Of a stretch of 64,000 nucleotides of DNA, positions 11,350-60,416 are shown piece by piece (position 1 is the stretch's first letter; every line of letters begins with the position of its first letter). The stretch lies in the NCBI RefSeq assembly GCF_900156915.1, contig NZ_LT732535.1, positions 3,054,838-3,118,837 on the forward strand, written 5' to 3'. The translations under genes were made by a program, and so were the position numbers. The stretch comes from Sediminibacillus massiliensis (GTDB lineage: Bacteria; Bacillota; Bacilli; Bacillales; Amphibacillaceae). A model generated the notes under the pieces. It saw nothing but the letters and a program-made list of their open reading frames with translations. It was not told the origin of the DNA and searched no databases.

Positions 11350-11999
11350 CATAAACTGCGAACTAACTCTCTATAGCGTGACTTCCTCCATTCTTTTCGG
11401 TTTGAGTGGTAGTCCAGCGCTGCGGAAAAATACTCGCTTTCCGTGGAGAACGCTTCAGCTTCCTTGAAAATACAAATCGATTTTCTGCGTGCGATGTTTC
11501 GCTGTCGAAGCGTTACTTGGGCCTGCGATTACTCGGCCCACCGAAACCCATTGTCCTCGGTGCAAAGACCGCCCCTGCGGGATCTTCAGACTGTTCCTTT
11601 CCCACAGGACTTTGAAAAAACATCCATGCATTTACACCGCACGCAGAAAATCGTTCTTTATTTTCAAGGAGTCTCGCATTTTTCCGCATCTTGGCATAGA
11701 TTACTGGTTAGGTGAGAAGTGATCCTGAAAGGTGTCTAACATGGTTCTTCCTAACAAAAATGGAGAAAACTTTTACCGGCGAGAGACAGAACCTTAAGAC
11801 TCTTGCAGGAACAGCGAAAGGTCTTCGATGGGGCGAGTAATCGCAGTCCCACGCGTCCGAAGACCCCCGCAGGAAGCGTACTTTGCTGATGAGGCAGGCC
11901 GTGCCCGTGGAAAGTGAAGTGTTCTGCCGCAGCGAGTCCATGCGCTCAACGATCATCAGAACAACAAGAAATAAAATTTTCACTAGTTCGCAGTTTCTC
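11350..11999. repeat. Foldback repeat, copy 1 (about 650 bp)
   Basis: The copy is bounded by perfect 13-bp inverted tips, AAACTGCGAACTA (11353-11365) and TAGTTCGCAGTTT (11984-11996). Inside are the modules shared by all copies, such as GCGCTGCGGAAAAATACTCG, CGAAGACC and GGCGAGTAA in facing orientations. The 779-bp gap between the exchanger gene and the acetyltransferase gene holds only this element. Short open frames inside it are by-products of its GC-rich modules. Confidence 0.85.
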
Positions 12000-16445: not shown

Positions 16446-16763
16446 AACTATAAACTGCGAACTAGCTAACTTTCTTTCGTGTGAATTCGTCCCAGTCCCA
16501 AAAGGGCTTCGATGAGACGAGTAACCGCAGTCCCAAGGGAGCAAGGATGCTTATTCAAGTAGCACCCTGATGGAGGCCGTGCTTGCGGAAAGCGATGTTT
16601 TCTACCGGAGCAGTTATAGCTTTCGACTTATTCAGGCTGCGGTTACTCGTCCCGCCGAAGACCTTTTATTTTTCCGCAGCGTGGACTACCACTCCATTCG
16701 AAAAGGATGGAAAGAAGCCATACTGAGAGTTGTGTCGCAATTTGCCTCAACTGAGCAGTTTAA
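16446..16763. repeat. Foldback repeat, copy 2 (about 320 bp, rearranged)
   Basis: The left tip AAACTGCGAACTA (16452-16464) is intact; the right tip has decayed (TGTCGCAATTT). The right arm from TTTTTCCGCAGCG onwards is the inverted left-arm module of other copies, and the left half carries the CGAGTAACCGCAGTCCCA block inverted relative to copy 4. The copy is therefore a rearranged assembly of the same modules. It fills most of the 540-bp gap upstream of the B12/STAS operon. Confidence 0.8.
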
Positions 16764-16830: not shown

Positions 16831-17136
16831 ATGTACGTTGTCCATTCGATATTTGAAGTTCCGCCGGAAAAGGCCGATGAAGTAATTGCTATTTATAAAA
16901 ACAGGTCTGGTCTGGTCGATAAAGCGCCGGGATTCATCAATTTTTCTCTTTTGCAAAACGACCGCCAGCCTGGTGAATTGACGGTGCAGATTTTATGGGA
17001 AAAGAAACAGGATTATCTGGACTGGGTAACAGGGGAAGATTACAAAAGAATACACGAGCTCGAAAAGAAATATCCGGATAAAGAACTGGCTAATATTGTA
17101 CCAAAAGTCCATAAATATCAGGTGGTGGCTGAATGA
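16831..17136 (+). CDS. Antibiotic-biosynthesis-monooxygenase fold protein (HmoA/IsdG-like), 101 aa
   Basis: A ferredoxin-like ABM-domain protein: MYVVHSIFEVPPEKADEV at the start, then GFINFSLLQND and VQILWEKKQDYLDWVTG. Members of this fold include haem-degrading monooxygenases (HmoA/HmoB) and small oxygenases, usually dimeric. I cannot prove haem binding, as no obvious axial His in the usual place is visible. It is the first gene of a four-gene overlapping operon (stop/start ATGA with the next), so it probably serves the B12/STAS signalling module. Confidence 0.75.
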   Translation: MYVVHSIFEVPPEKADEVIAIYKNRSGLVDKAPGFINFSLLQNDRQPGELTVQILWEKKQDYLDWVTGEDYKRIHELEKKYPDKELANIVPKVHKYQVVAE

Positions 17137-17531
17137 CTTTGCAGAAAAGCCCCATTGAAAGCATTCTTGATGAAGTGGTCGCGGGCATTTACAAAAAATA
17201 CCCTCAATTACTACAAAGGTTTGGAGAACAGGGCAGACAAAAATGCAGGGAAGATAATCAGCATCATATCCATCACTTGGAAACCGCTTATCAGGTCGAA
17301 GATCCGGCAATCTTTGTCGATTATGCTATCTGGCTGAATGACATTTTATGCGTAAGAGGGATGAAGCCTGACCATCTTATCGACAACTTTGAAAGAATTG
17401 CCATTGCCGTGGAAGGAAAATTGGATCCTGAACAGGAAAAATCTTATAAAAAGGCACTTGAGTCGGCCATCACAGCGCTTCAAAAAAGAGAAGAAAGCAA
17501 GTGGGAGGAGGACTGTGATAATGGACTATAG
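17133..17531 (+). CDS. Helical His-rich protein of the B12/STAS operon, 132 aa
   Basis: No named domain recognised. The sequence is predicted to be all-helical and contains QHHIHHLE near residue 42, four histidines in five positions, next to FGEQGRQKCRED. The clustered histidines could ligate a cofactor such as haem; that is speculation. Its ATG overlaps the stop of the ABM gene (ATGA), and it overlaps the following B12 gene by 11 bases, which implies translational coupling and a role in the same complex. Confidence 0.7.
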   Translation: MTLQKSPIESILDEVVAGIYKKYPQLLQRFGEQGRQKCREDNQHHIHHLETAYQVEDPAIFVDYAIWLNDILCVRGMKPDHLIDNFERIAIAVEGKLDPEQEKSYKKALESAITALQKREESKWEEDCDNGL

Positions 17532-18171
17532 GTGGAAAGAATTTGCACAGCTCCTGCTAGCCGGCGAAGATGAAGGTGCGTTCAGGTTAATAAGCGAGGA
17601 TGGCAGAGATAGCCTTGCCATCTACATGGAAATCGTTACAAATGCTATGCAGTATGTAGGGTACTTGTGGCAAAATAACGAAATTTCTGTCGCTGATGAA
17701 CATCTTGCTACAAGTGTTTGTGATTTTGTTCTCTCACGTTACAGTTTTTCTTTTAGAAACCAACAAAAAAAGAAAATAGGGAAAATCATGTTTCTGTGTT
17801 TAGAGAAGGAACAACACATGCTCGGAACAAAGATGGCTGCAGCACTGTGTGAAGAGAAAAACTGGGACGTACGTTTGCTCGGTGCAAACCTTCCGTTGGA
17901 ATATGCCATATCTAGCGCAGAATCATGGGAGCCGGACGTAATCGGGTTGTCTGTAGCGCTTCATTACAGGCTGCCTGTTCTCAAACGGTATGTTAAAGAA
18001 CTGGAAGCTCTGGAGTTTTCCCCGAAAGTCATTATTGGAGGAAGACTTGCATCCACATATGATTTATATAATTACTGTAGTAAGGAAACAGAATTGTTTA
18101 AGGACCTTTATGCAATGGATGCATGGCTTGATGAATATCGACAGGAGGTAAAAGTAAATGGAGCAAGTTGA
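17521..18171 (+). CDS. Stand-alone B12-binding protein with CarH-type photoreceptor signature, 216 aa
   Basis: Residues 1-80 form a helical B12 cap domain, and 88-216 a Rossmann-type B12-binding domain. Cobalamin motif residues are present: E97-x-H99-x2-G102, Ser144 in GLSVAL and Gly173-Gly174 in IIGGRL. In the cap, Trp50 is followed after nine residues by Glu60-His61, exactly the W-x9-EH signature of CarH-type adenosyl-B12 light sensors. Unlike CarH it has no MerR DNA-binding domain, so output must go through a partner, most simply the STAS protein whose gene overlaps its end by 14 bases. ATG lies behind GGGAGGAGG. Confidence 0.85.
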   Translation: MDYRWKEFAQLLLAGEDEGAFRLISEDGRDSLAIYMEIVTNAMQYVGYLWQNNEISVADEHLATSVCDFVLSRYSFSFRNQQKKKIGKIMFLCLEKEQHMLGTKMAAALCEEKNWDVRLLGANLPLEYAISSAESWEPDVIGLSVALHYRLPVLKRYVKELEALEFSPKVIIGGRLASTYDLYNYCSKETELFKDLYAMDAWLDEYRQEVKVNGAS

Positions 18172-18919
18172 ACACTTACCTCTGCCATATTTCAAGATAG
18201 ACGAAAACTACCGAATCACCGCTATGTCGGAGGAATCCAAACTTAAATTTTTGCATGGAGATGGCCTTATGAGCCTTGTGGATGAGGGGAGCCAGGAAAA
18301 GGCAGCGAGAAATATCACACCCGAAATCCCAGTGAACAGTATCGAACTTGTTTTAAAAACAAAAAATGACCCAGCTGTAGCCTTTCAATTGGATATCAAA
18401 TGGTTCGAAAAAGAAGGTCACATTATTTGTCAGGAACCAAACACCAATGTCGGCAACGTTTCTCGGCAACTGCAAGGGTTGAGGGATCGTTTAGCGGAAA
18501 CGGACTTTGCTTTATTGGAAAAAAAGGAAGAGCTGGAGCAGGCTATTGATCGAGCGGATAAACTGTCGGGTCCTTTCATCCCACTTAGTAAAGAAGTCGC
18601 AGTAGTTCCTTTATTCGGCGACTTGTCTTCCAAAAAGCTTCACTCGATTTCAGGCGGAATTGTAGATTCTTTGTATCATTCAGAATTCCATTATATTTTA
18701 TTTGACTTTACAGTAGTAGGTGAAATCAGCAGATCCGGCATGGCCGCGCTGGAAGAATTGATTAAAACCATCGGAGTGATGGGGCAGGACAGCATTATAT
18801 GCGGAGTCAAACCTTTACATGCTCAAATGATCAATGATTTTAAGTGGCTTTTCAAGTCAAAGAAAATAAATAAATTAAGTGATGCAGTCCGAATGTATGT
18901 TGGTAAATCCACTAGTTAA
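18158..18919 (+). CDS. PAS-like/coiled-coil/STAS protein (RsbR-type), 253 aa
   Basis: The first 100 residues look like a degenerate PAS domain (LPLPYFKIDENYRITAMSEE at the start is typical). A coiled coil follows near 108-135 (LRDRLAETDFALLEKKEELEQ), then a C-terminal STAS domain from about 140 (IPLSKEVAVVPLFGDLSSKK, ILFDFTVVGEISRSGMAALEEL). The IPLSKxVAVVPLxG opening is what RsbR-family stressosome proteins show, and Ser in ISRSGM aligns roughly with the phosphorylated Thr/Ser of RsbR/RsbS. ACAGGAGG precedes the ATG. It is the likely output of the B12 module. Confidence 0.85.
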   Translation: MEQVEHLPLPYFKIDENYRITAMSEESKLKFLHGDGLMSLVDEGSQEKAARNITPEIPVNSIELVLKTKNDPAVAFQLDIKWFEKEGHIICQEPNTNVGNVSRQLQGLRDRLAETDFALLEKKEELEQAIDRADKLSGPFIPLSKEVAVVPLFGDLSSKKLHSISGGIVDSLYHSEFHYILFDFTVVGEISRSGMAALEELIKTIGVMGQDSIICGVKPLHAQMINDFKWLFKSKKINKLSDAVRMYVGKSTS

Positions 18920-18953
18920 AAACATCCGATCTCCAAAGAGAGACCGGATGTTT
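18918..18953. terminator. Terminator of the B12/STAS operon
   Basis: AAAACATCCG pairs with CGGATGTTTT, with an inner TCTC/GAGA stem, then a T run; it also borders the convergent gene at 18956. Confidence 0.85.
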
Positions 18954-18955
18954 TT

Positions 18956-19378
18956 TTATAAATCAAGAATTTGTGGCTCTTTTTCACTTGTATTCATTAA
19001 ACGGATTGTTTCTGGGGTGATTTTTAAAACAACATAGTTTGGATCTTCTGGACCGTCAAACCATGGATCCAGTTTGTCATTCCAAATCTTTCCCTTGATC
19101 TCCGCAGATTCTTCGATAGACGCTTTTCCCTCGATTTCCAGGTAAGAGTCGTCCAGGCCTTCTCCTTTATAACCAATAAGGATATGGACATTGTTATTTT
19201 GGTCGATGTCCTCTATCTTATGGGTGTCTTTATCTGTAGCTGAGTACAGAGTTAAGTTGTCATTGAAAAAGGTCATATAGCGGGAGAAAGGCTTGTCATT
19301 TTTTACAGTTGATAATGTCCCGATCAAATTACTGTCCAAAATATCTTCTGCTGTTTTTCTGATAGTGCTTTGTTCCAT
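18956..19378 (-). CDS. Pyridoxamine 5'-phosphate oxidase-fold general stress protein (YdaG-like), 140 aa
   Basis: A split-barrel flavin-binding protein of the general stress protein 26 family: LIGTLSTVKNDKPFSRYMTFF near residue 18, LYSATDKDTHKIEDI near 44 and the C-terminal APxx-like TPETIRLMNT. These proteins bind FMN or F420-like cofactors; the reaction is unknown. AGAGGTGAG precedes the ATG. A weak sigma-B-like promoter is present, in line with B. subtilis YdaG. Confidence 0.85.
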   Translation of the reverse strand: MEQSTIRKTAEDILDSNLIGTLSTVKNDKPFSRYMTFFNDNLTLYSATDKDTHKIEDIDQNNNVHILIGYKGEGLDDSYLEIEGKASIEESAEIKGKIWNDKLDPWFDGPEDPNYVVLKITPETIRLMNTSEKEPQILDL

Positions 19379-38261: not shown

Positions 38262-38317
38262 CGAAGATTTGACAGATCTTTGTATTCATGTTTTAGTAAA
38301 AGTAACTAAATAAAGGA

Positions 38318-38408
38318 AGTCCACTAGGGGCGCCAGATGGCTGAGATAAGGAGTAATCCTTGGTCCCTTTGAACCTGAAATGGTTAATACCAGCGTAGGA
38401 AAGTGGAG
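38318..38408 (+). promoter_or_regulatory. TPP riboswitch (THI box)
   Basis: The conserved parts are all present: ACTAGGGGCGCC, GGCTGAGAT, CCCTTTGAACCTGA and ACCAGCGTAGGAAAGT. P1 is CCACT (38321-38325) with AGTGG (38402-38406). It precedes the thiamine operon. Confidence 0.96.
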
Positions 38409-38448
38409 ACGGGATAAGTTTCATTTTTGGTTATTTATGTATGTCGAC

Positions 38449-45789: not shown

Positions 45790-46379
45790 ATACACTGCGA
45801 CATACTCCAGTGTAGCTTCCTCCCATCCTTTTCGGAATGAGTGCTGAGCCGGCGCTGCGGAAAAATACTCGCTTTCCGTGGGGAACGCTTCAGCCAGGGT
45901 ACTACTTGGGTGGGCTCCTTTGCTCCCTTGGGACTGCGGTTACTCGTCCCACCGAAAACCTTTGCGTCGAGGAAGCTTACTACGAAGCGATACTAGAAGA
46001 CGCAGACGCATCACTGCGGGGTCTTCAGACTGTTCCTTTCCCACTGGACTTTGAAAAGACCTCCGTGAACTTACACCGCACGCAGAAAATCGAACTTAAT
46101 TTTCAAGGAGTCTCGCATTTTTCCTCCGCTTTGGATAGAACTTCTGAACAAGTGGGAAGTGGTCCTAAATTTGTTTAACATGGGATACTCCCTAACCAAA
46201 ATTCAGAAAAAATCTAACAGCGGAGGCAGAACACGCAGACTCCTCGAAAATACAAATCGATTTTCTTCGTGCGAGGTATTGCTGACGAAGCCTTCCTTAT
46301 CCTGTGGGAACAGCGAAAGGTCTTCGATGGGGCGAGTAACCGCAGTCCCACGAGTCCGAAGACCCCGCAAGAAGCGCTT
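45790..46379. repeat. Foldback repeat, copy 4, left part
   Basis: The left tip is ACACTGCGACATA (45792-45804, one mismatch to the common tip). A 78-bp block (45852-45929) is identical to copy 5 at 60546-60623, and 46127-46222 matches copy 5 at 95 of 96 positions. The CGAGTAACCGCAGTCCCA block is present in both orientations. The element continues after the IS insertion at 47824. Confidence 0.85.
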
Positions 46380-57887: not shown

Positions 57888-58703
57888 TTATACCTTTTCT
57901 GTTGGATCTGGGAATGCATAAAGATTTAAGGCTTGTTCCAAGGTTCCGCTGGTAACGGCTTTTTGTTCAAAAGAAACCCCGTTTTGAATCAAGTTCCTGG
58001 CGACCTCCGAGCGGATGCCGGTAATGACTGGTTTACATCCCATCATGGAAATGCCATCCAGCACATTCAGAAACTCCTGCATTACTTCAGTTTCTATTTC
58101 GACGATTCCTGAAAGGTCGATGATTAATGTCTGGATGCGAAGCTTTCCGATTTCCAGTAGTATTTTCTCTTCTATTATTTCTGAACGATATGCGTCGATG
58201 GAACCAATTAATGGAAGAATGCAGATGCTTGAAGAAATTGGAATGATAGGGACAGACAACTTTTCTACCATTTGTCGCTGGGATTCAATAAGGTCGTCTT
58301 TATACCTGGAATAACTAATGAAAAAGTTGTTAAGGAATTCATCAATTTGCTCATTTATTTTGCTTTCCAAGTCATAAAAAGCGATCCTGTCCACCGGTCT
58401 TTCACTCAACTTGTCATATTCATAGAGGAAGTGCCAAAGCGTCCTCCGGATGGCCTGGACCCATTCTAGCTTAAATGCAAGCGTAAGGGAAAACTTTGCC
58501 CATGCGATCCCTTCCTGTTGAGCGAAAGCCACCAACTCCTCTTTTTCTTCATCTACTACGTGAAGAACCAGTTTTTGGGCATTTTTTAATAGGTTTATAT
58601 TTCCGATGACACGAATTTCTTCGATTTTATCTCGGACATTAACAGCTTCACTCAACAGTTTTTCTTCAAATAAAGCACGGTTTTCCTTGAGAAAATCACC
58701 CAT
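57888..58703 (-). CDS. RsbR-family stressosome protein, 271 aa
   Basis: The N-terminal 150 residues form the variable helical (globin-like) sensor part, and the C-terminal 115 a STAS domain: IPISSSICILPLIGSIDAYRSE near 157 and LIIDLSGIVEIETEVMQEFLNVLDGI near 197. Thr in EIETEV aligns with the phosphorylated Thr171 of B. subtilis RsbRA; the residue corresponding to Thr205 appears to be Asn (ARNLIQNG). The length fits RsbR paralogues (270-290 aa). ATG at 58703 has GAAGGG 6 bases upstream; a GTG 13 codons earlier is also possible. It probably joins stressosome complexes. Confidence 0.85.
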   Translation of the reverse strand: MGDFLKENRALFEEKLLSEAVNVRDKIEEIRVIGNINLLKNAQKLVLHVVDEEKEELVAFAQQEGIAWAKFSLTLAFKLEWVQAIRRTLWHFLYEYDKLSERPVDRIAFYDLESKINEQIDEFLNNFFISYSRYKDDLIESQRQMVEKLSVPIIPISSSICILPLIGSIDAYRSEIIEEKILLEIGKLRIQTLIIDLSGIVEIETEVMQEFLNVLDGISMMGCKPVITGIRSEVARNLIQNGVSFEQKAVTSGTLEQALNLYAFPDPTEKV

Positions 58704-59153
58704 GCCTATCCCTTCAGAATAATAAATAGCCAATCCAACCACTTCCTTTTGAAAGATTAAAAGTAAGTATAAAGTATTTATCTATTAATATATCAAAATC
58801 TAAATTTTCTGTATAATATTCATTACTTTACTGCCGTGTTTGACTGTTCTTTAATTGGGAAAAATACCTAATGGTCTCAAATCGGTATAACGGATGACAG
58901 GCACACCAGTATTCCAGCACACATATTATTATTATAAAAAGTGTATAGCCATTTCCATCCTTATTTGTCGGCAAAATGAAGTTGTGGTTTCTTCTTCATT
59001 CCTGATATAATCTAACTTATCCCGATGGAGCTCTCCCTACTAAAAGAAGTGGGGAAAGAGCAAACCACCGGCTGATTGAATGTTTCACTTGATGTATGAA
59101 TCGGAATATGGCTGATAAACTTACAATTGCAATCAATTAAAAGGAATGATTTC
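58704..59153. other. Intergenic region upstream of murB with possible leader hairpin
   Basis: TTGTGG, 18 bases and TATAAT (TATAAT at 59006-59011) is a possible murB promoter. About 20-50 bases downstream GCTCT-CCC pairs imperfectly with GGGG-AAAGAGC. No open frame of note and no known riboswitch was recognised. Confidence 0.35.
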
Positions 59154-60156: not shown

Positions 60157-60230
60157 CGACTGGCAGAGTCAATTGAATGCATTTTTACAAAAAAGATGAT
60201 ATGATAACCGTAATCGAATAAGGTATTCCT

Positions 60231-60365
60231 TTGGGGCAGGGTGTAATTCCCGACCGGCGGTGATGGGAGAACGATGAATCCCTCAGTCCGTGACCCGCTG
60301 CATCTGGCAGCGGTGGATTTGGTGAAATTCCAAAGCCGACAGTTATAGTCTGGATGGGAAAAGGG
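60231..60365 (+). promoter_or_regulatory. FMN riboswitch (RFN element)
   Basis: The conserved parts are in order: GGGGCAGGGTGTAATTCCCG, ACCGGCGGT, TCAGTCCGTGACCCG, GATTTGGTGAAATTCCAAA and GCCGACAGTTATAGTCTGG. It controls the riboflavin operon that starts about 600 bases downstream. Confidence 0.97.
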
Positions 60366-60416
60366 ATAGATGAACGTATTCAATACGTTTATTTAACTAT
60401 GAGATAATAACCAACA

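Follow-up and report, generated by a model that had tools for sequence, protein, structure and literature searches.

The photocobilins, which include SasPcob of Saccharothrix syringae and AbDPcob, combine a CarH-like adenosylcobalamin (AdoCbl) domain with a bilin-binding globin (PMC10979010). In these proteins AdoCbl and biliverdin lie edge to edge and light alters the oligomeric state, and in a standalone photocobilin the light-driven switching of an enzyme through protein contact has been measured (PMC10979010). STAS/SpoIIE partners have been predicted for the actinobacterial (Saccharothrix) photocobilin SasPcob (PMC10979010). Related arrangements are reported for the photoglobins (Schneider et al. 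2022, cited in PMC10979010 and PMC10151467) and for the BBAG-2 group (PMC10151467), where a bilin-type globin lies beside or is fused to a B12-binding protein and is associated with a haem oxygenase; the locus described here likewise has a bilin-type globin beside a B12-binding protein.

The window, a stretch of 64,000 nucleotides from the bacillus Sediminibacillus massiliensis, contains a four-gene operon at 16831–18919 on the plus strand. The genes encode, in order, an ABM-fold protein of 101 aa (16831–17136), a globin of 132 aa (17133–17531), a predicted AdoCbl-binding protein of 216 aa (17521–18171) and a PAS-STAS protein of 253 aa (18158–18919). They overlap successively by 4 bases (ATGA), 11 bases and 14 bases, and all of the open reading frames and overlaps that an earlier note on this DNA had given were confirmed in the sequence. 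A short inverted repeat and a T run read from the sequence after the last gene (18921–18958) form a probable terminator. We place at about two in three the probability that this operon is a split photocobilin, using AdoCbl and a bilin, that feeds the stressosome; the reading draws on sequence comparison and structure models, and it follows from the identification of the 132-aa protein as a bilin-binding globin.

The operon has both domains of the photocobilins and the contact residues of SasPcob, and it differs from SasPcob in layout. SasPcob is one polypeptide in which the B12 domain precedes the globin, whereas in the operon the globin gene precedes the B12 gene with the 11-base overlap. Because the polypeptides are separate, the operon sensor would work like a photocobilin rather than being a strict member of that class. 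The operon also has its own ABM and PAS-STAS genes, unlike SasPcob.

The globin gave nothing significant in Pfam, NCBIfam or PHROGs. A profile built from 14 homologues and searched against all PDB sequences found SasPcob first (8J2X/8J2W, E 8e-6), followed by phycocyanin alpha (6e-4) and AbPcob. The AlphaFold2 model, made with 61 sequences, is all-helical (pLDDT 93.2); VIA-align placed it closest to SasPcob (8J2X, Z 13.7, rmsd 1.9 Å over 111 residues), followed by allophycocyanins and the biliverdin-binding smURFP, and Foldseek ranked phycobiliproteins first with weak E-values. Helical folds can reach a high Z by chance, but for this globin profile, fold and residues agree. Residues were mapped to SasPcob with a numbering offset of +5, which correctly places its W61, E71-H72 and H137. 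In the C38-R39-E40-D41 segment (17244–17255, plus strand), D41 corresponds to the biliverdin contact Asp270, and W67 (17331–17333, plus strand) corresponds to Trp296, which contacts the bilin D ring and the corrin; both are invariant in 68/68 globins. C38 aligns with the pigment-attaching cysteine of the phycobiliprotein CXRD motif (CXQD in photoglobins), keeping the Cys and the Asp with Glu as the third residue. Cys is found at this position in 62 of the 68 globins, whereas the bilin site of SasPcob is without Cys. With profile, fold and pocket residues concurring, the 132-aa protein is a predicted bilin-binding globin (photoglobin). The earlier note had seen in this histidine-rich helical protein a possible haem or redox input, which these comparisons do not support: the histidines are not a haem motif, with only H44 and H45 invariant, and the idea that the HHIHH protein is a haem globin or a hemerythrin was rejected, its fold and profile indicating bilin globins of the photocobilin and phycobiliprotein kind.

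The B12 protein has a CarH-like helical cap and a Rossmann domain, with Pfam matches to B12-binding (E 3e-16) and B12-binding_2 (E 1.9e-10) and a partial NCBIfam match to CarH; its profile found SasPcob first among PDB sequences (8J2W, E 6e-22), with CarH further down. The adenosyl-capping motif W50-x9-E60-H61 (17668–17703, plus strand), E97-Q-H99-M-L-G102, S144 and G173-G174 are all at the positions claimed for them. W50, E60, H61, H99, G102 and S144 are unchanged in 81/81 homologues, and a check of the orthologues for loss of W-x9-EH found none. The homologues therefore conform to the photocobilin pattern of W-x9/10-EH and E/D-x-H in the B12 domain. H99 (17815–17817, plus strand) is the predicted lower axial cobalt ligand in a His-on arrangement and corresponds to SasPcob His108 (PMC10979010). 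A Pfam scan found no MerR-type DNA-binding domain, and together with the profile it supports the earlier description of a CarH-type AdoCbl module lacking one. The likeness to CarH covers the AdoCbl cap motif, the E-x-H motif and the lack of a methyltransferase role, whereas CarH has a MerR DNA-binding domain and the operon protein is proposed to give its output by protein contact. No CarH was found elsewhere in the genome, whose two other B12 proteins are one of MetH size and one belonging to a methylmalonyl-CoA mutase locus.

NCBIfam also matches the protein, weakly and in part, to MtgC and MtaC, which raises the alternative of a corrinoid methyl-transfer protein with unrelated neighbours. 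This is scarcely credible and was rejected, as photocobilin and CarH score best, the adenosyl-capping W and EH are invariant and the operon holds no methyltransferase gene. It is improbable, if less so, that the operon is a metabolic sensor, its B12 protein informing the stressosome of AdoCbl supply, or of oxygen and redox state through the cobalt, and its ABM protein and globin informing it of haem or haem breakdown. AdoCbl-dependent switches could in principle read the B12 level, the methylmalonyl-CoA mutase locus is an AdoCbl user, and ABM proteins are often haem-degrading; against this, W-x9-EH is the hallmark of CarH-like domains that respond to light, and the globin belongs to the bilin rather than the haem type. 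The predicted B12 protein and bilin globin very probably form a two-pigment light sensor.

The first gene offers a candidate source for the second pigment. Its product belongs to the haem-oxygenase-like IsdG/HmuQ superfamily (Pfam ABM, E 1.3e-14; NCBIfam HmuQ below the cut-off), and alignment to 1IUJ gives S6-W65-H75 in place of the N-W-H catalytic triad described for IsdG-family haem oxygenases (PMC5557675). Among its homologues S6 and H75 are each kept in 68/68 and W65 in 59/68. The protein therefore resembles IsdG, HmoB and HmuQ in the ABM fold, the conserved His and the mostly conserved Trp, and it differs from them in an invariant Ser for the catalytic Asn and in its association with a bilin-type globin. 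Characterised IsdG enzymes yield staphylobilin or mycobilin, not biliverdin (PMC5557675), and the Ser at the catalytic Asn position makes the product of the operon protein uncertain. BBAG-2 clusters carry pre-PcyA where the operon has the ABM-fold protein, and in related Myxococcales clusters haem oxygenases lie nearby or elsewhere (PMC10151467), whereas a search of the Sediminibacillus genome found no canonical haem oxygenase. The ABM protein is likely a pigment-making enzyme, a putative assignment made from its sequence.

The arrangement recurs widely. In a survey of 80 named loci of bacilli plus the window (81 loci), all four genes were present at 62; four loci had the ABM, globin and B12 genes with no fourth gene recognised, 11 had B12 and PAS-STAS only, two had B12 with a short PAS protein, and two (L110 and L143) had the order B12, PAS-GHKL kinase, ABM, globin. 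The linkage of B12 and STAS genes, on which the earlier note had staked its reading, thus recurs, and the tight coupling of the genes is likewise supported. The 4-base overlap of ABM and globin genes is possible at 67/68 of the homologous loci compared and the 14-base overlap of B12 and PAS genes at 46/77. Recurring gene order and overlaps, along with the B12-protein motif residues kept in 81/81, put the observation beyond chance. A dispersed inverted-repeat element with GACGAGTAACCGCAG arms has three copies in the window (16500–16667, 11523–11846 and 45934–46345), with six arms against 0.05 expected; one copy lies just upstream of the operon, and an exact 15-base search did not find the element in the loci compared from other genomes. 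The window also contains FMN (60223–60369) and TPP (38316–38418) riboswitches identified with Rfam. In three genomes the operon was seen in decayed form or with internal deletions (L043 in G118, L027/L046 in G124 and L029/L047 in G015), so some lineages can do without it.

The ABM and globin genes behave as one functional unit, to judge from their joint presence and absence and their pairing even elsewhere in the genome. They are present together at 68 loci and absent together from the other 13 (81/81 concordant). Nine of the 13 genomes without the local pair have an adjoining pair elsewhere and four have neither gene genome-wide, so that no globin without an ABM gene was found in the 81 loci or in the genomes lacking the local pair. 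Alkalihalophilus pseudofirmus OF4 has its B12 and PAS-STAS genes at one place and the ABM–globin pair at another. Seven of the elsewhere-regions were inspected: four hold only a two-gene ABM–globin cassette, at one (L203) the pair lies near a gene for a larger protein that matches B12 weakly, and two (L206 and L207) are second, kinase-type operons. The free-standing cassettes (L201:3178-3848, L202:3343-4013, L204:3571-4262 and L205:3167-3828) keep the 4-base overlap and have no adjoining B12 gene of the family. A test of co-loss on independent pairs gave three supported pairs, too few for significance.

This pairing bears on the possibility of a pure B12 photoreceptor, in which the globin would serve as a structural adaptor that carries no pigment in vivo, with an unrelated role for the ABM protein. 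In its favour, AbDPcob binds biliverdin weakly yet works with AdoCbl (PMC10979010), and such a receptor would suit both the Ser in place of the ABM catalytic Asn and the genomes that have B12 and PAS-STAS genes but lack a globin altogether. We nonetheless consider it distinctly unlikely, as the biliverdin-contact Asp that AbDPcob is missing is invariant here, as is the Trp, and in these loci and genomes no globin turned up without the ABM gene.

Fused relatives support the split photocobilin from another direction. A phylum-wide search found, in genomes from another family of the class that look Paenibacillus-like by size and gene content, single proteins of 360–363 aa with the globin followed by the B12 domain, and this fusion directly precedes a hybrid histidine kinase. 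In more distant clostridial-type fusions the next gene encodes a GGDEF protein. Fusions with their following genes, for hybrid kinases (HisKA, HATPase, receiver, Hpt) or GGDEF proteins, are seen at L192:4203-7007, L193-L195, L197 and L199. The globin Asp and Trp and the W-x9-EH motif are conserved in the fusions. A fused sensor followed by an output gene suggests that the globin and B12 protein of the window are two halves of one sensor and that the gene after the sensor is its output.

The fourth protein is predicted to fold as a PAS domain (about residues 7–95), a linker helix and a STAS domain (about 139–250). Pfam recognises STAS (E 2.7e-6) and NCBIfam gives the YtvA family at 1e-15, below its cut-off. 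The PAS-like N terminus proposed earlier is thus borne out by structure prediction, although it has no Pfam match. Foldseek placed the model closest to full-length YtvA (2MWG, E 8.7e-12) and VIA-align to the Listeria stressosome (7B0U). The protein therefore has the sensor domain, helical linker and STAS domain of the YtvA/RsbR family, and the RsbR-type output first suggested for it is supported, with YtvA as a further likeness. YtvA has a LOV domain, whereas the PAS domain here is of a non-LOV kind, the flavin-binding motif NCRFLQ being absent from the sequence, and light would be sensed by the separate proteins. The genome encodes a complete rsbRA-S-T-U-V-W-sigB-X operon about 100 kb away and at least ten STAS proteins of the general RsbR-like kind, including one of 284 aa in the window (about 57888–58742, minus strand). 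A sigma-B promoter upstream of the operon was not enriched, the best scores being hardly above Markov shuffles overall.

It is unlikely that the sensor reading is right and the output lies elsewhere, with the PAS-STAS protein acting on another GHKL kinase or an anti-sigma factor. The same PAS domain is also joined to GHKL kinase domains: in one lineage GHKL stands in place of STAS, with T, N or E at the usual phospho-acceptor His (L042:7550-8662, L174:2313-3419, L175:2220-3326, L176:2090-3196, L110 and L143), and such H-box-altered kinases may phosphorylate a partner rather than themselves. The phosphorylatable site of RsbRA, T171, is also not conserved, being Arg192 in the fourth protein and S/T in 6/51 homologues. 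The RsbR-type linker and STAS domain, however, are common to the RsbR-like proteins of its own genome, YtvA and stressosome proteins are its nearest matches of solved structure, and YtvA has likewise been reported to play a positive stressosome role only (PMC3944199).

Co-occurrence with RsbT is consistent with a stressosome target. The genomes of all 42 STAS-type loci sampled match RsbT strongly, with E below 1e-48. Across 397 genomes of the order, with kinship uncorrected, a strong match was found in 157/163 genomes with the globin versus 150/234 without it. Three of the six exceptions among globin genomes (G219, G330 and G355) have a kinase-type operon; RsbT is nevertheless present in other genomes of kinase type (G013, G118 and G563), and one STAS-type genome (G366) has a weak match of 2.9e-23. 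As RsbT is common in the order, this co-occurrence is weak evidence. We infer, with good support, a light input to the stressosome.

In the proposed mechanism, the ABM protein would supply a bilin by opening haem, and the globin would hold it through D41 and W67, possibly with a link to C38. The B12 protein would bind AdoCbl with H99 on the cobalt and with W50 and the E60-H61 pair enclosing the adenosyl group, and it would dock onto the globin in the manner of SasPcob. The Co–C bond of AdoCbl would be broken by green light, and bilin absorption would extend the response to red/orange. The sensor would thereby alter its shape or oligomeric state, and contact between the proteins would carry this signal to the PAS domain of the PAS-STAS protein. 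The STAS domain of that protein, within an RsbR/RsbS stressosome, would promote RsbT release and sigma-B activation in a YtvA-like way; with GHKL in place of STAS, the same sensor would serve a different output. A fuller version, in which split photocobilins give the stressosomes of many bacilli a two-colour light input with a non-biliverdin bilin made by the S-W-H ABM enzyme and held, perhaps covalently at C38, in a stand-alone globin, is tentative and rather unlikely to hold in full. We know of no photoreceptor whose pigment is made by an ABM-fold S-W-H enzyme.

The components and the sensor type are already known. The earlier claim that no system of this composition had been described therefore needs narrowing: sensors with AdoCbl and a bilin are established (PMC10979010; BBAGs, PMC10151467), but the split operon with ABM and PAS-STAS genes was not found in the literature searched. 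Searches on the stressosome with cobalamin or biliverdin, and on B12-binding with STAS or RsbR, returned nothing on the operon, although earlier notice in the photoglobin work is possible. Within that literature the new elements are the division of the sensor between two genes of an operon in bacilli, an ABM partner that is always there and has an altered active site, the choice between PAS-STAS and PAS-GHKL outputs and a bilin site that usually has a Cys.

YtvA provides a blue light input. If the split-photocobilin reading is true, many bacilli of soil and sea have a green/red light input to their sigma-B-type stress control as well, and a cultivable Gram-positive photocobilin model with a natural output becomes available. 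With the two pigments in two genes, each can be removed separately, and the pairing of ABM protein and globin allows the synthesis of photoreceptor pigment by ABM-fold enzymes to be probed cheaply and sharply.
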